From NCBI RefSeq assembly GCF_001945525.1, contig NZ_MPJW01000061.1:1-33266 (forward strand): a stretch of 33,266 bases of DNA, in the 5' to 3' direction. A model generated the notes under the pieces. The model searched no databases. It was not told where the DNA came from and was given only the letters and a program-made list of their open reading frames with translations. Positions within the stretch are counted from its first letter, which is position 1. Each line of letters opens with the position of its first letter. Below are positions 7,224-21,773 of this stretch, piece after piece. The translations under genes and the position numbers were made by a program. Origin of the DNA: Ileibacterium valens (GTDB lineage Bacteria; Bacillota_I; Bacilli_A; Erysipelotrichales; Erysipelotrichaceae).

Positions 7224-10200
7224 TTAAACCGGAAGGCGCATTGGATACCTTGGTGCTGGGCCTCCATAATGATAGGCAATGTCATACATTGAACCAATCT
7301 GACATCCACCTTGGGCCATGTACATAATCATTCCATTACCTACATAAATTGATGAATGAGTAAAACGTGTTGTCACTGGAGTCCAAGTTCCACAATACAC
7401 TACGAGATCTCCAGGCACCAGGGAACTAACACTTGGCAGCATATAAGCATATCCTTTTTGTGTAACAAATTCATGAACATTTGCTGCATTCATATGCAGA
7501 TCAAATGCCTTATTGAAAGTTCTCATAACAAAACCAATGCAATCAAGATATTTATCATTGTCACGGCCACCGGAAGAAAATTGTGCACCCCAATGTTCGG
7601 AAGCAGAAAGCAAAAGCTTACCCAACTTTGTATTAGCACCCGCGTATAGCGTAGGATAACCAGGGGGATCGAAGATAACCTGACCATTGACTATCTTGCA
7701 CCAACTTGGGCGAGTTGAAATTTGTTTTGCCTTACCCGTTGCTGGATCAATTTTGAACTTACTTCCGTTAATCTCGTATTCTGCTTGATAAACCAGATTT
7801 CCATTTTTATCAAAAACATAGTTCTGATCTTCATTATGAATACTGTTATAGGCTTTTTTTATATTTACAAATTCGTTAACAGCCATTGCTCCTGAGCCAG
7901 GATGGAAATATTTCCAATTATTATCAATTTTGCGAGTGCCATACACCATTTTTCCATCAGATCCATAGTAAACTGTCTTTTCACCCTGAGGTTCAAGGTC
8001 CTTCGTCAGTTTTACCAGTTTGTTTTTGGCAACCTGTCCATTCCGATCCATGAAATACCAGCCGCCCTGATATTCAAACTGTGTATTAACCGCCCGATCT
8101 CCATTCTGGTTGTAGACAGCAAAACCATCTTTTTCCACTCTGGCATATTTGTTTTTCAGTTTTCCACTTCCAGGAGCTGCATAGAAGACTTTAGAGTCCC
8201 GTTCAATTTCTCCATACAGCATTTTACCTAGTCCGGATCCAGGTTTACCTGTTGTTTCATAGTAAACCCACTTTGGATCGTTTGGCTGATAATTCTTATC
8301 TAGATAGAATTTTCCTGTAATCATTCTTCCGGATCCGCGTTCAAAGCAATACCAGTCATTTCCAATCTGGCGCTGTCCATATACCATGATTCCTGTTTTG
8401 GTGTCGTAATAGACCGTCTTATCCCGGTCAGTTTTGTCCGCGGTCTTCTTCAGGTCATGGAATCCTGTTTTCATCAATCCGGTATTGTAATCAAAGAATC
8501 TCCACTGGTTGGGGCCTGTCTCTTTTTCTCCAGTCACCATTACTCCATTGCCATCCAGATAGATTTTTCCGCCAGTAACATCTACCAGTTTATTGACAGC
8601 TTTCGTTCCAGATCCTGGCATCAGATAGTATTTTTTTCCATTGATTTCCTGCAGACCATAGAGCATGGCTCCTCTGTTTTCCTGTTTAGGACTGTAGTAA
8701 ACCAGTTTGGGATCATCCGGCTGATAGTTCTTATCTAGATAGAAAAATCCAGTAATCATTCTTCCAGATCCGCGTTCAAAGCAATACCAGTCATTGCCAA
8801 TCTGGCGCTGTCCATATGCCATGATTCCTGTTTTGGTGTCGTAATAGACCGTCTTATCCCGGTCAGTTTTGTCCGCGGTCTTCTTCAGGTCATGGAATCC
8901 TGTTTTCATCAATCCGGTATTGTAATCAAAGAATCTCCACTGGTTGGGGCCTGTCTCTTTTTCTCCAGTCACCATTACTCCATTGCCATCCAGATAGATT
9001 TTTCCGCCAGTAACATCTACCAGTTTATTGACAGCTTTCGTTCCAGATCCTGGCATCAGATAGTATTTTTTTCCATTGATTTCCTGCAGACCATAGAGCA
9101 TGGCTCCTCTGTTTTCCTGTTTAGGACTGTAGTAAACCAGTTTGGGATCATCCGGCTGATAGTTCTTATCCAGATAGAAAAATCCAGTAATCATTTTTCC
9201 AGATCCGCGTTCAAAGCAATACCAGTCATTTCCAATCTGGCGCTGGCCATAAGCCATGATTCCTGTTTTGGTGTCGTAATAGACCGTCTTATTCTGATCT
9301 GTTTTATCTTTGATTTTATCCAGATCTTTGAATCCGGCAACCATCAGATGAGTGGTCTTGTCAAAGTATCTCCACTGATTTGGTCCGGTCTCTTTTTCTC
9401 CGGTAATGGCCTTACCATCACTGCCTAGATAGATTTTTCCTTTAGTTCCGTCAACTGTGACCTCTGCAATACCATTCGTCAGCATCTTTCCGGAACCATC
9501 TTTGAAATAATAAAGGTCCTTACCCACATTAGCCATTCCATATACCATGGCTCCATAAGGGGTCTTTCCACTTTTGCTTGTGTTGTAATAAACCACTTTT
9601 GGATCGTCCGGCTGATAACTCTTATCCAGATTCACAATTCCTGTCTTCATCACTCCGGTCTGGTTATCAAAGCAATACCAGTCATTATTAACCTGATGCT
9701 GACCATATTGCATCGTTCCGTCTTTTCCATAGTAATAGGACTTATCGTCGGTAACCGCCACAATTTTGTTGACGGCCATAGCTCCTGTTTTCTGATCAAA
9801 GAAATAGTTCTTATTATCTAAAGTCAGCTGGCCAAAATGCATGTAACCGTTCTTATCATAGTAAACGGTTTTTTCACCTTGAGGATTGTATTCTTTTTTC
9901 AGATGAGTCAGCCCGGTAAACAGAACACCAGTCTGCTTGTCCGCACAGACCCATAATTCCCTGCCGGCTTCTTCTCCGACTTTATTCTGACCATAAATGA
10001 TTTTTCCATCTAAACCAAAGTTATAAAGCTTTCCATCGACTGTTTTAACACCAATCAGCGCCTGTCCGTTTTCAAAGTAGCTGAGCTTATCGCTGCTCCA
10101 GCCATTCAATTGAACTTTCGGAGTTTCAGTGACCACCAGTTCTGTAATGATAGAGGTCTTATCGTCCAGGTTAGATTCTTCGTTTTTCAGAAGAACATTT

Positions 10201-10571
10201 TCATTTTCTTTAACTTCGTCAGTCTGATCTGAACCCTCCGATTTATTTTCTTCATTTTCATCCTTCAGATTCGTTTCATTCTTATTATTTCCTGAAGGCA
10301 GGTCTGTAATCGTTTGGTCTTCAGCAGGACCTGAATTTGTTGAAACCACATCCAGAACTTGAGAACCCTCTGAAGGTAAAGCTGAAAGATCTTGTTCTGC
10401 GGTCTGAGCCTTTTCATTATCATTAATGAAAGGGGTACTTGATGTTTCCTGCGTAGTCTGTTCATCACCAGAAACTGCAATAACGGCATCTTCTGCAAAA
10501 ACTTCAGCAGCAGCTGCTGTGCTGAATCCTGTCGCAGCAATGACAGCGGCAGCAACAATTGATTTTTTCAT
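7224..10571 (-). CDS. Secreted cell-wall-binding repeat protein with C-terminal NlpC/P60 peptidase
   Basis: Encodes 1115 residues. A signal peptide (MKKSIVAAAVIAATGFSTAAAA) is followed by a Ser/Thr/Glu/Asn-rich linker to about 160. Residues from about 165 to 975 are aromatic-glycine repeats of the glucan/choline-binding (CW_binding) kind, recurring as WYCFD-TG-M-TG, LDK-YQPDDPK-VYY and G-M-YG. Residues about 983-1115 form an NlpC/P60-like domain with Cys1011 in LDCIGF and His1072 in FTHSSIYVGNG as the presumed catalytic pair. Family members cut peptidoglycan stem peptides. AGGAAGG lies 9 bases before the ATG. Two central blocks of 145 residues are almost identical. It is probably a cell-separation or surface autolysin held to wall polymers by its repeats; the ligand cannot be read from sequence. 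Confidence 0.9.
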   Translation of the reverse strand: MKKSIVAAAVIAATGFSTAAAAEVFAEDAVIAVSGDEQTTQETSSTPFINDNEKAQTAEQDLSALPSEGSQVLDVVSTNSGPAEDQTITDLPSGNNKNETNLKDENEENKSEGSDQTDEVKENENVLLKNEESNLDDKTSIITELVVTETPKVQLNGWSSDKLSYFENGQALIGVKTVDGKLYNFGLDGKIIYGQNKVGEEAGRELWVCADKQTGVLFTGLTHLKKEYNPQGEKTVYYDKNGYMHFGQLTLDNKNYFFDQKTGAMAVNKIVAVTDDKSYYYGKDGTMQYGQHQVNNDWYCFDNQTGVMKTGIVNLDKSYQPDDPKVVYYNTSKSGKTPYGAMVYGMANVGKDLYYFKDGSGKMLTNGIAEVTVDGTKGKIYLGSDGKAITGEKETGPNQWRYFDKTTHLMVAGFKDLDKIKDKTDQNKTVYYDTKTGIMAYGQRQIGNDWYCFERGSGKMITGFFYLDKNYQPDDPKLVYYSPKQENRGAMLYGLQEINGKKYYLMPGSGTKAVNKLVDVTGGKIYLDGNGVMVTGEKETGPNQWRFFDYNTGLMKTGFHDLKKTADKTDRDKTVYYDTKTGIMAYGQRQIGNDWYCFERGSGRMITGFFYLDKNYQPDDPKLVYYSPKQENRGAMLYGLQEINGKKYYLMPGSGTKAVNKLVDVTGGKIYLDGNGVMVTGEKETGPNQWRFFDYNTGLMKTGFHDLKKTADKTDRDKTVYYDTKTGIMVYGQRQIGNDWYCFERGSGRMITGKFYLDKNYQPNDPKWVYYETTGKPGSGLGKMLYGEIERDSKVFYAAPGSGKLKNKYARVEKDGFAVYNQNGDRAVNTQFEYQGGWYFMDRNGQVAKNKLVKLTKDLEPQGEKTVYYGSDGKMVYGTRKIDNNWKYFHPGSGAMAVNEFVNIKKAYNSIHNEDQNYVFDKNGNLVYQAEYEINGSKFKIDPATGKAKQISTRPSWCKIVNGQVIFDPPGYPTLYAGANTKLGKLLLSASEHWGAQFSSGGRDNDKYLDCIGFVMRTFNKAFDLHMNAANVHEFVTQKGYAYMLPSVSSLVPGDLVVYCGTWTPVTTRFTHSSIYVGNGMIMYMAQGGCQIGSMYDIAYHYGGPAPRYPMRLPV
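8386..9255. repeat. 435-bp tandem duplication inside the NlpC/P60 gene, two near-identical copies
   Basis: Copy one is 8386-8820 and copy two 8821-9255, exactly 435 bp (145 codons) apart. About the first 345 bases are identical, and only about five differences are seen in the rest. A third, diverged start of the unit follows from 9256 with roughly 35 identical bases. The unit length is a multiple of three, so gain or loss keeps the reading frame. Confidence 0.92.
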
Positions 10572-15023: not shown

Positions 15024-17021
15024 CTAACGAAGGACAGTTCCCGGTTGAATTGAGTCTGGAAGGAAAATGACTTCATAGCCATCTGCTGAATCAGCACAGA
15101 GAATCATTCCGCTTGAAAGTTCTCCACGCAGTTTGGCAGGTTTCAGATTTGAAACTACCAAAACTGTTTTCCCAGTAATTTCCTCTGGAGTATATTTTTC
15201 AGCGATTCCACTGACGATCTGACGAACATCTCCGTTTCCAAGATCTACTTCTTCAATCAGCAGCCGATCCGCTTTAGGATGTCTTTTCGCACTGAGAATC
15301 TTTCCAGCTTTCAATTCGATCTTTTCAAAATCACTGAACTCAGCTTCTTTTTTGATTTCAGATTCATTCTTCTTTTCTTTTTTTGATTCTTCTTTTTTTG
15401 CCTTTTTCTGCTGCTTCTCTACTTTTTTATTTTCCTTCTTTAAATCTGCAGCCTGTTCACCCATTTCTTCTGCAAATTTTTTCGGATCAATTCTGGCAAA
15501 TAAAGCGGGAGCTTTAGGTGCTGTATGAATACCTTCTTCAAGAAGCCCAAATGTTTCTGCGGATTCTAAAGAGCGCTGATCGGTGTTCAGCAGATCAAGG
15601 ATCGTCTTTCCAGTATCTGGCATGAATGGCTCAAGAAGAATTGCACTAATACGGAGACTTTCAAGCAAGTTATAAAGAACTGTCTGCAGGCGGTCTTTCT
15701 TTTCTGGATCTCTGGCCAGAATCCAGGGTTCTGTTTCATCGATATATTTATTTGAACGGCGAAGCAGAGTGAAAATTTCATCCAGAGCATCCTTAACGCG
15801 GAATTCTTCCATTTTAGCGATGGTATTGTTTACAGCTTCCTTCGCCGTTTCCTTGAGCTGTTCATCTACTTCTTCATTCACATTTGGATTATGGACTTCC
15901 CCATCAAAATACTTCTGATTCATGGCAATCGTTCTGGATACCAGATTTCCAAGAATATTCGCCAGATCTGAGTTGATTCTTTCAACGACTAAATCCCACG
16001 TAATCGTTCCATCCGATCCAAATGGGATTTCATGCAGACAATAGTATCGAACTGCATCTACCCCAAATTTTTCAACCAGGTCTTCTGCATAAATAACATT
16101 CCCTTTGGACTTGGACATCTTTCCTTCGCCCACAAGCAGCCATGGATGTCCAAATACCTGTTTTGGAAGAGGCAGATCCAAAGCCATCAGGAAGATCGGC
16201 CAGTAAATTGTATGGAATCGTAAAATATCTTTTCCAATAATATGAGTTCCCGGCCAGAATTTGGTGAACTCTTCACTTTGTTTTTCGGCATAAGGATCAT
16301 ACCCAAGAGAAGTAATATAGTTTGTCAGGGCATCCAACCATACATAAACGACGTGCTTGTCATCAAAGTCTACTGGCACTCCCCAGGTAAATGAACTTCT
16401 TGAAACGCACAGATCCTGCAGTCCTGGACGCAGGAAGTTATTGAGCATTTCATTCTTACGGCTTTCAGGCTGAATAAATTCTGGATGATCTTCGATATAC
16501 TGAATCAGCCGATCCGCATATTTTTGCATATTGAAGAAGTATGCTTCCTCTTTTGCTTTCTGTACAGGTCTGCCGCAATCCGGACAGTTTCCATCGACGA
16601 GCTGAGATTCGGTCCAGAAAGATTCACATGGAGTACAGTACCATCCCTCATATTCGCCTTTATAAATGTCTCCCTGTTCGTAAAGTTTCTTAAAAATTTT
16701 CTGAACGATACGAACATGGTCTTCATCAGTCGTACGAATAAAGTAATCGTATGATGTATTCATTAAATCCCAGTTGCTTTGAATCTGCTGTTTAACACCA
16801 TCAACAAATTCCTGAGGGCTTACTCCAGCAGCTGCTGCTTTTTCTTCAATTTTGATTCCATGTTCATCGGTCCCAGTCTGAAAAAACACATCGTAGCCCT
16901 GCTTTCTTTTAAAGCGGGCAATTGCATCACTGAGAATAATTTCATAGGTATTCCCAATATGGGGACGGCCGGAAGTATAAGCAATAGCCGTCGTCAGAAA
17001 ATATGGTTCTTTCTTTTCCAT
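15024..17021 (-). CDS. metG: Methionyl-tRNA synthetase
   Basis: Charges tRNA-Met. Encodes 665 residues, the usual length for the form with a C-terminal tRNA-binding domain. The class I HIGH motif reads HIGN (PHIGNTYE), a normal variant in this family. A zinc-type CTPC...CPDC knuckle lies near residues 128-147, and KMSKS is at 301-305. A Lys/Glu-rich linker of about 50 residues leads to the EMAP/Trbp111-like domain (FEKIELKAGKI...SSGMILCA) at about 560-665. The ATG has GGAAAGGATGAAG upstream. The leader is about 120 bases with a small GGCAGC/GCTGCC hairpin (17050-17066); no T-box is seen. Confidence 0.97.
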   Translation of the reverse strand: MEKKEPYFLTTAIAYTSGRPHIGNTYEIILSDAIARFKRKQGYDVFFQTGTDEHGIKIEEKAAAAGVSPQEFVDGVKQQIQSNWDLMNTSYDYFIRTTDEDHVRIVQKIFKKLYEQGDIYKGEYEGWYCTPCESFWTESQLVDGNCPDCGRPVQKAKEEAYFFNMQKYADRLIQYIEDHPEFIQPESRKNEMLNNFLRPGLQDLCVSRSSFTWGVPVDFDDKHVVYVWLDALTNYITSLGYDPYAEKQSEEFTKFWPGTHIIGKDILRFHTIYWPIFLMALDLPLPKQVFGHPWLLVGEGKMSKSKGNVIYAEDLVEKFGVDAVRYYCLHEIPFGSDGTITWDLVVERINSDLANILGNLVSRTIAMNQKYFDGEVHNPNVNEEVDEQLKETAKEAVNNTIAKMEEFRVKDALDEIFTLLRRSNKYIDETEPWILARDPEKKDRLQTVLYNLLESLRISAILLEPFMPDTGKTILDLLNTDQRSLESAETFGLLEEGIHTAPKAPALFARIDPKKFAEEMGEQAADLKKENKKVEKQQKKAKKEESKKEKKNESEIKKEAEFSDFEKIELKAGKILSAKRHPKADRLLIEEVDLGNGDVRQIVSGIAEKYTPEEITGKTVLVVSNLKPAKLRGELSSGMILCADSADGYEVIFLPDSIQPGTVLR

Positions 17022-17737: not shown

Positions 17738-17765
17738 CCCAAACAACCGCAATCCATATAAAAGC

Positions 17766-17807
17766 AAAAACACTGCATGAACCGGATCTGATTCATGCAG
17801 TGTTTTT
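17766..17807. terminator. Bidirectional terminator between the Nudix and RDD-PHP genes
   Basis: A perfect 16-bp stem AAAAACACTGCATGAA / TTCATGCAGTGTTTTT with a 10-base loop gives T runs on both strands. It sits between two convergent genes. Confidence 0.9.
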
Positions 17808-17853
17808 GTGTAATCAATTCAAGAGAAACATATCCTGTTTGTCCAGGCTGAAG

Positions 17854-19494
17854 TTATGCGCGAGGCATATTTGGATCCGGCTTTTCATTGTCCAGCGCAC
17901 GGGTAAAGACTTCAACAGAATGAAGTCCTTTAGCAGGACAATTTGTTTTTCCAAGTTCACGGTCCGGACGTTTGCTTCCGTGATAATCACTTCCAGCAGT
18001 AACAAACAGTTTTTCATCACTGGCTACTTTTAACAGGAAGGCCGCAGTTTTTGAATCGACATCCGGGGTGAAGACTTCAAGACCATCCAGACCGGCTTCG
18101 ATGAGATCCACCAGAGTTTCATTGTCGAGTTCATCGACATGCCAGCCAGACAAAACAGCCATACCTCCGGATTCGTGAATGGCATCAATAAAACTGATAG
18201 CATCCGGATAGGTACGTTCGATATAGCAGGGTTTGCCTTGCGTGAAATACTCCTCAATAAAGATTTCACGTGCTTTCTGTTCATCGCCTTCTGCCTGACG
18301 GATTGCCTTTTGTACTGGTTCAAGCTGTCTGGTTCTGGGATTTCTAAATACCATATTGGTAAGATCCGCTCCAGTCAGGATCTGAAAGCGGGATTTGGAA
18401 AGGATTGAATCCAGATCAATTCGAATATTCATCAGCTTCTCAAAAGCCTGTGCTCTTTTCAATGAAGCTTCTTTTTCGCGCTTCAAAGAATTCTTCTCGA
18501 CTTCATCAAAGACTGGATTCGTCCAGTCGATGTAGTAACCGAGAATTCGGACTCTTTGATTATTCAAAGAGACATCTGCTTCCATTCCAGGGATATATTG
18601 GATGTCATACATGGCCGCAAACCGTAAGGCCTGCGCGTTGGCTCTTGCGCAGTTATGGTCTGTAATTGAAATCACCCGCATATTCTGCTGCTTGGCCTTT
18701 TTAAAAATTTCCTCAACATCATCGCTGGCATCATCCGAATAACTCGATCGGATATGAAGATCAATCGGCGAAACGGATGATGAAGGCACTGGATTTGCCG
18801 GTTCAGCTTTCTGCTCTTCTTTTTGTTCAGGCTCTGCTTCTTTTGGCTGCTCAACTTCATTTACAGGCTGTTCTTCATTATGAGAAAGAATATGTCTGAA
18901 TGGATTTCCTAATCGAATTTTATAGGAAGGAACGTAGACTGGAATCAGGGAAAAAACCCAGTCAAACAAAGTCTGCTGCTTATTGCTGGCCAGAACAACC
19001 AGGATGGATACAGCCCACCAGACTAACAGCCCGGTAATCGAAAAGAAATATCCAAAAAGCATGATTGGAATTCCAAATCCAAGAAGCTCCCGAAGAACAA
19101 GCCGCATGAGGGGAGCTTCTTGCATCGAGATATCTACCAATTTGATTCCAACAACCTGCATACCCCATGTCTGCCCTCGCGTAGCCGCTAAGCGCAGCGG
19201 CATTAAAACACAGCTGCAGAAAAACAGAAGAGCATACATCAGATAAAACAGCCAGTCAAAGAAATGGGGAGGAATCAGCCCCGTAAGGATCAGAATAAAT
19301 TCAATAGCCCAGATATAAACCGGCAGCAGACAGATGTTCAGATCGATCAAAAAAGCAAAGAGATGATTTTCATAATCATCAAAGGTTCTTTTAAGTGGTT
19401 TTGCTTTTCTGAACCCTTCTTCACGATACAGCTGCTGTTCTTTCAGCTGGGCGGCCCGGTTAATTTCACTTTCACTAAATTTTGTAGATGGCAT
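17854..19494 (-). CDS. RDD membrane domain fused to a PHP domain with substituted metal ligands
   Basis: Encodes 546 residues. The ATG at 19494 has AGGAGG 7 bases upstream; an adjacent in-frame TTG is rejected. Residues about 40-195 are an RDD-type membrane domain (LRLAATRGQTWGMQVVGIKLV is its signature). A Glu/Pro/Lys-rich linker (205-240) leads to a PHP phosphoesterase-like domain (243-530). PHP landmarks: DLHIR (245-249), ITDHN (277-281), GMEAD (303-307), ILGYYID (317-323) and GSDYHG (501-506). Normal members have HxH, a His before ILGY, and an AHP motif; here these read HxR (Arg249), Arg316 and SGW-His (449-452). A trinuclear metal site like that of RNase AM is therefore unlikely to be complete, though His247, His280, Glu305, Asp503 and His505 remain. 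Confidence 0.85.
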   Translation of the reverse strand: MPSTKFSESEINRAAQLKEQQLYREEGFRKAKPLKRTFDDYENHLFAFLIDLNICLLPVYIWAIEFILILTGLIPPHFFDWLFYLMYALLFFCSCVLMPLRLAATRGQTWGMQVVGIKLVDISMQEAPLMRLVLRELLGFGIPIMLFGYFFSITGLLVWWAVSILVVLASNKQQTLFDWVFSLIPVYVPSYKIRLGNPFRHILSHNEEQPVNEVEQPKEAEPEQKEEQKAEPANPVPSSSVSPIDLHIRSSYSDDASDDVEEIFKKAKQQNMRVISITDHNCARANAQALRFAAMYDIQYIPGMEADVSLNNQRVRILGYYIDWTNPVFDEVEKNSLKREKEASLKRAQAFEKLMNIRIDLDSILSKSRFQILTGADLTNMVFRNPRTRQLEPVQKAIRQAEGDEQKAREIFIEEYFTQGKPCYIERTYPDAISFIDAIHESGGMAVLSGWHVDELDNETLVDLIEAGLDGLEVFTPDVDSKTAAFLLKVASDEKLFVTAGSDYHGSKRPDRELGKTNCPAKGLHSVEVFTRALDNEKPDPNMPRA

Positions 19495-19514: not shown

Positions 19515-19523
19515 ATCATAACA
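19515..19523 (-). promoter_or_regulatory. Candidate extended -10 promoter of the RDD-PHP gene
   Basis: TGTTATGAT on the minus strand fits an extended -10 (TG-N-TATGAT) about 20 bases before the start codon and directly after the terminator of the upstream gene. No -35 is evident. Confidence 0.35.
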
Positions 19524-19537
19524 AAAACATCACAATG

Positions 19538-19574
19538 AAAACAGCAGAGTAAAATTACGTTTCTTACTCTGCTG
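19538..19574 (-). terminator. Rho-independent terminator of the large surface protein gene
   Basis: CAGCAGAGTAA and TTACTCTGCTG form a perfect 11-bp stem followed by TTTTC on the minus strand. Confidence 0.8.
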
Positions 19575-19604: not shown

Positions 19605-21707
19605 TTAATCCGGATCCTTTTTTAAGGATTTTTTCAAAAACAGACCACAAAGCGATCCAAAAAGAACTGTCATATAAGAATAGGTCAAGCCATGTTCAGC
19701 TGTGGCAGTCGCCGGACGATTTGCTGCGGTTGGTTTCTTAAGCTGTGTGTTTGAAGAAACAATACCAAGCCCGAGCAGCACCCGATGAGCCTGTCGATAA
19801 AGTGATGTGTATGAAACAGATCCGACTTCGGCCAGTCTGGCATTAATTGCCTGTTTATCTGCAAAATCCAGTGTTTTCCAGACTGAATATCCTGACATGA
19901 TCTGTTTGTAATTTGCTGACCAGGCCTGCAGATAAATCTGCCCGGCGCTATTCGAACAATAGGTATTGATGAATGAGTTGACCGCATTCGAATTCAATCG
20001 GTTCACTGGCTGAATTCTGGAAGAATCGGACTTCCTGGAAGTATTATTCTTATTCACCGCAGAAAGCGAAGAAGCATCTCCAATGGCTCCGACGCCATTC
20101 TGAACCGCTTTAGTATTTGTACCTGGTTTAACTTCGGCAGCCAATGCGATTATTGAATTCTTCTGGGGTTCTGCAGAACCCTTTACAAGCGCTAATCCTT
20201 CGTTCAATGAATGGTCTGGCATATATGGGAGATCATCAGTATTTATTGACTCTTCCTGTTCAGAATCGTTTTTTTCAGAATCTGGTTTTTCCGTTTCTGT
20301 TTTATCTTTTTCTTCTGTAGCAGAATCAGATGAATTGTCTGAGTTTACAGGCTGATTCGTATTTTCATTTTTATTTGCAGTGTCTGTCTTTTCATCAGAT
20401 CCTGCTTCTGCATTTGCAGAGTCATCAGGATCTTCAAGACCAGAAAGCAGGACTGAATCCTGGCTTGTTGATGAAAACGAGATCTTACCTGAAGCGTAAT
20501 CAATTCTTACTGAAGCTGGCTGAATCCAGGTTATCGTTCCCTGAGTCTCATCTTTTTCAAGGGTATAGAATCGGCTGAACCCTTCATTATTCACCTTCAC
20601 TGCAGAAATTGGATCTGAACTGGCCTGAAAACCATCTTTTGTGGAAGTAAATAAAACATCGACATAAAGACTCAGATCATCAGGATCAACCTTCAATGCA
20701 TTGGCCAGAATCAGCGCTGTTTTTGGATCCCTGATTTCCTTTCCATGGGCAGAATACTCAATCGTGCCAAGTGAATCTGAGCTCAGGGAAGATTGATACA
20801 ACAAAGCTTCCTGGTTTTCATCATTATCCTTGTTCTCATTCGAATCGTCTGGATTCTGATCTGTATTGTCATTTACTGTATCTGATAAATCCGAGCCAGG
20901 TTTCACCGGATTTTTATCCTCGTCAGTCAGATCAGCAGAAGAATCCGTCTGATTCTGATCAGAAGAGTTATTCGCTGGTTTATCTTTTGAAGAATCTGTT
21001 TTGTTTCCAGAATCAGTCACTGCTGAAGAAGACTGATCTGTCTTAACATCATCTTTTATATTTTCTGTATTTTCTGGCTTTGCAGCAAGTTCAGGCTCTT
21101 CATCCTGCTGAGTCTGCGAAACTGTCGCTTCAGTTTTTGAAGGCTGTTGTTGAGGTGAATTCTGAATATTCTCCTGAACAATTTCATCAGCTGGCTGATT
21201 ATTGGAGTTTTCTGCAGCTTTATTAGCTTCTTTTGCTGCTTTAGCCTCTTCTTCCTGCTTTTTTAAATTCTGAGCTTCCTGCTGCTCTTTGATCCGTATT
21301 TCTTCCTGAATTTTTGCATTTTCCTGATCAATCTGTTCCTTGATATTTTTCGCATTATCAATCAGAACAAAATAGTCAATTTTCTGTTCATTATAGGAAG
21401 CCAGAATTTCTTTTTGGATTGGCTCTGAAAGCTGATTAAAAACAGAATTTCCATCCAGAAGAAGCTGATAATTTTCGCGGTTTGCTTCTTTAAACCAGAT
21501 CCATTCTTCCTTAGTCGCTTTTAAAGAGTCCTGTGTCGTAATTTTAGTTCCGGCATACGTCTGAATAAAATCCTGACTGCTCATATCCTTAACATCAACA
21601 ACTGCTGCCACAGGTACAATCGGCTGGCTTTTTACATTGGCTAAAACAGGTGAAGTACTGCCAAGCCAGACAACAGCGCTCAGGCTGACTGCTGCGAGTT
21701 TATTCAT
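19605..21707 (-). CDS. Large secreted surface protein with related modules at both ends
   Basis: Encodes 700 residues from the ATG at 21707, which has AGGAGG about 6 bases upstream. A signal peptide (1-24, ending VLA) is followed by a helical module (45-120) starting FIQTYAG and containing NYQLLLDGNSVFNQL. A charged coiled-coil (120-168), an acidic Asn/Asp/Ser/Gln-rich linker, a compact middle domain of about 110 residues (312-425), and a second acidic linker come next. A second module (577-645) starts FINTYCS and contains NYKQIMSGYSVWKTL, clearly related to the first. The C-terminus has a membrane segment (674-691) followed by KKSLKKD, like a cell-wall or membrane anchor, but there is no LPXTG. 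Function unknown; adhesin-like architecture. Confidence 0.8.
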   Translation of the reverse strand: MNKLAAVSLSAVVWLGSTSPVLANVKSQPIVPVAAVVDVKDMSSQDFIQTYAGTKITTQDSLKATKEEWIWFKEANRENYQLLLDGNSVFNQLSEPIQKEILASYNEQKIDYFVLIDNAKNIKEQIDQENAKIQEEIRIKEQQEAQNLKKQEEEAKAAKEANKAAENSNNQPADEIVQENIQNSPQQQPSKTEATVSQTQQDEEPELAAKPENTENIKDDVKTDQSSSAVTDSGNKTDSSKDKPANNSSDQNQTDSSADLTDEDKNPVKPGSDLSDTVNDNTDQNPDDSNENKDNDENQEALLYQSSLSSDSLGTIEYSAHGKEIRDPKTALILANALKVDPDDLSLYVDVLFTSTKDGFQASSDPISAVKVNNEGFSRFYTLEKDETQGTITWIQPASVRIDYASGKISFSSTSQDSVLLSGLEDPDDSANAEAGSDEKTDTANKNENTNQPVNSDNSSDSATEEKDKTETEKPDSEKNDSEQEESINTDDLPYMPDHSLNEGLALVKGSAEPQKNSIIALAAEVKPGTNTKAVQNGVGAIGDASSLSAVNKNNTSRKSDSSRIQPVNRLNSNAVNSFINTYCSNSAGQIYLQAWSANYKQIMSGYSVWKTLDFADKQAINARLAEVGSVSYTSLYRQAHRVLLGLGIVSSNTQLKKPTAANRPATATAEHGLTYSYMTVLFGSLCGLFLKKSLKKDPD

Positions 21708-21773
21708 GAGAATCCTCCTTTTTTCAGGCAAATGTGCCGGTTTTTAATCCTTTTTGCAGGATACGCAAACGTT

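Follow-up and report, generated by a model that had tools for sequence, protein, structure and literature searches.

An RDD membrane domain fused to a PHP domain with an altered metal site in Erysipelotrichaceae

The closest described relatives of the PHP domain analysed here are RNase AM, also named RNase RNM (YciV; PDB 7ug9 and 9etk), and CV1693 (PDB 2yb1). In RNase AM, Mn-alpha is bound by His13, Glu72 and Asp255, Mn-beta by Glu72, His83 and His198, and Mn-gamma by Asp20, His45 and His257; Mn-alpha and Mn-beta are proposed to coordinate the attacking water, the substitutions D20A, E72A and D255/H257A disrupt activity, and Arg201 binds sulfate (PMC9410882). PMC3666897 counts the second His of the HxH motif among the nine ligand positions, and the RNase AM text does not include it among the alpha ligands (PMC9410882). 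Variant PHP domains have been described in DNA polymerases. At six of the nine positions the most frequent substitute is Arg, which stands in for the charge of the metal, and position 7 becomes Gly or Ala; R10 and R203 of E. coli Pol III are situated at metal sites (PMC3666897). RDD proteins include B. subtilis SppI/YteJ and a Halobacillus RDD antiporter, and SppI is able to regulate a membrane partner (PMC7568657). The literature searched, outside which most subscription journals lay, held nothing relevant on RDD-PHP fusions, PHP pseudoenzymes or RDD proteins in Erysipelotrichales, and the searches made turned up no experiments on any member of the RDD-PHP family.

Architecture and metal site of the RDD-PHP protein

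The window, a stretch of 33,266 nucleotides from Ileibacterium valens (contig NZ_MPJW01000061.1, positions 1 to 33,266), encodes a protein in which an RDD membrane module is joined to a PHP domain by an acidic linker, as the initial annotation had proposed. The gene and its parts are the following:

17854..19494, minus strand: RDD-PHP fusion gene (546 aa plus stop; ATG at 19494, stop at 17854)
18952..19359, minus strand: RDD membrane domain, residues 46–181 (Pfam PF06271)
18766..18897, minus strand: acidic linker, predicted disordered, approximately residues 200–243 (pLDDT below 50 at 204–237)
17890..18765, minus strand: PHP domain, residues 244–535, of the RNase AM/CV1693 type with a helical insertion
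18748..18750, minus strand: Arg249 codon (RNase AM His15; second His of HxH in homologs)
18547..18549, minus strand: Arg316 codon (RNase AM His83, beta-metal ligand)
18142..18150, minus strand: Ser449-Gly450-Trp451 codons, replacing Ala-His-Pro (RNase AM His198, beta-metal ligand)

An AGGAGG Shine-Dalgarno sequence lies just 5' of the ATG codon at 19494. The RDD domain scored 42.7 bits against PF06271 (E 8.5e-11), above the gathering cut-off of 24.1, and R36, D40, D51, R135 and D178 of the RDD part are unvarying among the nine closest homologs, R36, D51 and D178 being candidates for the conserved Arg-Asp-Asp residues of the family. PF06271 and conserved Arg and Asp residues are common to this protein, SppI/YteJ and the Halobacillus antiporter, whereas a PHP domain has been described in neither of the latter.

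The PHP part matched PF02811 over residues 246–312 (E 3.6e-10) and fell far below the cut-offs of two curated models, with 96.7 bits against NF041577 (3',5'-nucleoside bisphosphate phosphatase; cut-off 400) and 67.5 bits against NF047791 (RNase RNM/RNase AM; cut-off 375). Its closest PDB chains by sequence were 2yb1 (CV1693) and 9etk and 7ug9 (RNase AM). An AlphaFold model based on 63 related sequences reached a mean pLDDT of 90.5, with values mostly of 96–98 in the PHP part and an unstructured linker, whose length differs among RDD-PHP homologs. The top Foldseek match of the model was V. cholerae RNase AM (9etk; E 2e-16, TMt 0.75), and the PHP domain of E. coli Pol III, a known metal-deficient case, was also matched. 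Model and matches agree in assigning to the protein the PHP fold with the insertion domain that characterizes RNase AM.

The nine metal-ligand positions were mapped by aligning the window protein with RNase AM and homologs. Positions 2, 6 and 7 are altered (H to R249, H to R316, and AHP to S-G450-W), and the protein therefore lacks the full nine-ligand tri-metal set of RNase AM. The initial annotation had reported these three alterations (as H-I-R249, Arg316 and S-G450-W-H452) together with the retention of His280, Glu305, Asp503 and His505; both observations hold, and His247 and Asp255, the latter unlisted there, are kept as well, so that six of the nine positions are retained. The alpha site still has all three named ligands (His247, Glu305 and Asp503), next to Arg249, and the gamma site has its complete triad (Asp255, His280 and His505), whereas the beta site (Glu305, Arg316 and Gly450) is lost. 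The phosphate-binding Arg of RNase AM is also absent, Val453 standing at the Arg201 position. His452 was considered as a substitute ligand and rejected; only 19 of the 29 fusions in the window's clade (see below) carry it, and it is therefore not dependable as a replacement.

Compared with RNase AM and CV1693, its best fold and sequence matches, the window protein shares the PHP fold, the helical insertion and six of nine ligands, but differs in three changed ligands that include both beta His residues, in the Val at the Arg201 position and in the RDD fusion. A PHP fold with an incomplete ligand set in a conserved domain is what distinguishes variant PHP domains, and this combination is found here. 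Like the variant PHP domain of E. coli Pol III alpha (PMC3666897), the window protein keeps the fold, has Arg as a replacement and has Gly at position 7; Pol III alpha, however, is changed at five of nine positions (1, 4, 5, 7 and 9) rather than at 2, 6 and 7, and is a polymerase, whereas the window protein is a membrane protein of separate origin.

Conservation, selection and stepwise history

The sample comprised 52 distinct RDD-PHP fusions and 69 soluble PHP homologs. Every fusion found belongs to Erysipelotrichaceae, and strong full-length matches in a class-wide sample of 296 genomes were confined to the same family. The complete pattern HHDHEHHDH is present in 55 of the 69 soluble homologs, and the remaining 14 carry Glu or Asp at position 316 (the His83 position) and few other changes. 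The window's clade contains 29 fusions, all of which have Arg316 and Trp451 (29/29 each); Ser or Gly stands at position 450, and position 249 is Arg in 24, His in three and Leu in two. This degree of conservation of R316, W451 and R249 indicates that the altered residues did not arise by chance. The retained ligands are similarly constant in the clade (H247 and E305, 29/29; D255, H280 and H505, 28/29; D503, 26/29). In the alignment the vacated positions are not taken over by any one substitute residue in a consistent way, and none of the numerous homologs with the same Arg residues is known to be active.

Across the 29 clade sequences, 56 of the 292 PHP columns are unvarying. Six close clade pairs gave computable dN/dS values of 0.016–0.085 for the PHP part, similar to those of the RDD part, with synonymous sites near saturation in several pairs. 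The altered PHP domain is under purifying selection, and the reading frames are open throughout the clade except in one broken copy (genome G061). Arg or Lys residues at PHP positions 314, 339, 341, 369 and 389 are kept in the 29-member clade but seldom or never seen in soluble homologs; they may form a new surface for an anionic ligand.

In a maximum-likelihood analysis of the PHP part with the metal-site columns excluded, the soluble proteins and all fusions were separated (bootstrap 100, SH-aLRT 98), a topology showing a single origin of the RDD-PHP fusion. The site is intact in three fusions (L168, L065 and L163), and these are distributed over both branches that arise from the first split; the simplest assumption is therefore an ancestral fusion with an intact site. 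In a parsimony reading of the tree, H316R came first, at the base of a large branch in which some later changes occurred, followed by AHP to (S/G)W (support 100/100) and then by H249R (100/99). The Merdibacter-type fusion L060 combines H249 with R316 and SW. A second branch (L164–L167) lost ligands separately, resulting in Thr316, Tyr450 and Tyr505. The fusions of genus g57 carry R316, retain H249 and vary at residue 450, and further ones have lost most ligand positions; L159, L160 and L170 are heavily degenerate.

Gene neighbourhood and the surface protein c2

The surroundings of the RDD-PHP gene in the window contain the following features:

19605..21731, minus strand: c2, uncharacterised surface protein of 708 aa, upstream of RDD-PHP
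19542..19574, minus strand: intrinsic-terminator-like hairpin of 13 pairs with a T-rich tail, between c2 and RDD-PHP
19515..19523, minus strand: candidate extended -10 element TGTTATGAT, a pattern match just 5' of RDD-PHP
17765..17808, minus strand: intrinsic-terminator-like hairpin of 19 pairs with a T-rich tail, 3' of RDD-PHP
15024..17021, minus strand: metG (methionyl-tRNA synthetase), conserved downstream neighbour

An Rfam scan of the window gave zero matches. The c2 protein consists of a signal peptide, two copies of a helical domain, an acidic disordered middle, a C-terminal transmembrane segment and a basic tail, its C-terminal membrane anchor being devoid of LPxTG. The helices of the domain are confidently predicted (pLDDT of about 96 across the C-terminal copy); its fold had no PDB or viral match at E 0.001, and no Pfam family match was found for c2. 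A 474-aa frame at G006:C1:263416-264495 contains five tandem copies of the same domain.

In the window's subclade, c2 adjoins RDD-PHP on the upstream side. A profile of the c2 C-terminal part gave strong matches (E <1e-27) in exactly 27 of the 268 family genomes, and comparison by eye of the two genome lists revealed that these are the 26 genomes with an RDD-PHP of the R249/L249 subclade plus G061, which has the broken copy. The two genes lie on different contigs in five of the 27 (G001, G208, G209, G211 and G212), so that their co-occurrence outlives, or is at least independent of, close adjacency; it may be accounted for by the common ancestry of the genera, which form one clade. An operon of c2 and RDD-PHP was rejected as the default arrangement, since in the window and in most homologs a terminator-like hairpin and then a -10-like element intervene, which argues for separate transcripts. 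In most homologous loci a hairpin with a T-run lies directly 3' of the stop codon of the upstream gene, and TATAAT could be read at the corresponding place in 12 of 21 loci. Of the 52 loci, 44 have metG near RDD-PHP, downstream of it and usually at a distance of 200–330 bp; an operon with metG is unsupported, given gaps mostly of this size and, in the window, a NUDIX gene on the opposite strand between the two.

Other arrangements were observed elsewhere in the family. Eight loci of other branches (L149, L159, L161, L162, L163, L168, L169 and L171) encode, directly 5' of RDD-PHP and often overlapping it, a protein of approximately 107 aa with CxxC pairs (zinc-ribbon-like) and hydrophobic helices, a possible operon partner. 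In L164, L166, L065, L165 and L167, parB is followed directly by RDD-PHP, with soj/parA present in most of them, possibly an origin-proximal setting. A second RDD-type ORF, of 411 aa, is situated two genes after the intact RDD-PHP of L163 (genome G147). In the window itself, positions 7224–10571 (minus strand) encode a 1115-aa protein with glucan-binding repeats (TIGR04035) in four stretches and a weak C-terminal match, NlpC/P60-like.

Interpretation of the altered PHP domain

The explanation that we consider probable is a membrane-anchored variant PHP protein that has lost the beta-metal site and, with it, RNase AM-type hydrolysis, and that serves as a ligand-binding or scaffold module. Given the proposal that the attacking water is coordinated by the alpha and beta metals, the loss of both beta histidines should stop hydrolysis of the RNase AM type; this loss, together with the fact that metal-deficient PHP domains of polymerases usually have Arg in place of a lost ligand, makes a membrane-tethered variant PHP the best reading. 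The RDD domain would anchor the variant PHP domain, presumably on the cytoplasmic side of the membrane. Fold and pocket would be retained and phosphoester hydrolysis of the RNase AM type lost, the guanidinium groups of Arg316 and Arg249 would be expected to sit where the metal charge was, and the pocket or the surface would act as the ligand-binding or scaffold module, possibly in cooperation with c2, the surface protein of the adjoining gene. Some metal is probably still bound, because six conserved ligand positions exceed the need of a pure scaffold.

The initial annotation had suggested either a non-catalytic sensor or a different chemistry. The incomplete site, the loss of the beta His83/His198 equivalents and the conservation of the change favour a non-catalytic role, and we infer sensing or scaffolding as its nature; conservation of six of nine positions, including the gamma triad, nevertheless leaves room for a weak or different chemistry at a reduced metal site. 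Because of this conserved triad, the main rival is an enzyme in which D255, H280 and H505, together with the alpha ligands H247, E305 and D503, hold one or two metals, the Arg residues position the substrate, and a different or slower phosphoester reaction takes place at the membrane. Near-invariance of the six ligands in the clade, unlike the degenerate L159, L160 and L170, fits such an enzyme, and the clade-specific R314, R339, K341 and R389 could bind a phosphorylated substrate, but both His residues of the beta metal, half of the pair proposed to coordinate the nucleophile in RNase AM, are gone and Val occupies the Arg201 position; we regard this explanation as possible, if somewhat doubtful.

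A non-catalytic partner of the cell's soluble canonical PHP enzyme, acting for example through membrane recruitment or a mixed dimer, appears improbable. Most genomes of the window's clade do encode a soluble RNase AM-like protein, but four genomes that are each at least 98% complete (the window's, G060, G190 and G191) carry an altered RDD-PHP and no second RNase AM-like match; in the window's genome (98% complete) the other PHP proteins found were only DnaE, PolC and three HisJ-like proteins. A strict requirement for a soluble canonical paralog was therefore rejected. Even less credible, to the point of being very improbable, is a decaying relic in which the RDD part matters and the PHP part drifts: most ligands have indeed been lost in some other branches of the family, but in the window's clade selection holds the PHP part about as tightly as the RDD part, the low dN/dS speaks strongly against drift, and the invariant columns and the open frames, save the G061 copy, point the same way.

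For the preferred reading of a membrane-anchored variant PHP that would bind a ligand or a partner, SppI provides a precedent of an RDD protein controlling a membrane partner (PMC7568657). In the most specific and speculative form of a partnership with c2, which we consider rather unlikely, the altered RDD-PHP and c2 would constitute a two-part transmembrane module of one gut Erysipelotrichaceae clade, whose Arg-rebuilt pocket binds a phosphorylated intracellular ligand and whose state is passed to the extracellular partner.

Metal-deficient PHP domains are known from DNA polymerases; the RDD-PHP protein would add a membrane protein to them, and it ties an uncharacterised surface protein of gut bacteria to this family. 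Intact, half-changed and heavily degenerate metal sites occur within one well-supported tree, and such a series makes the order of events from enzyme to pseudoenzyme testable step by step with living proteins.
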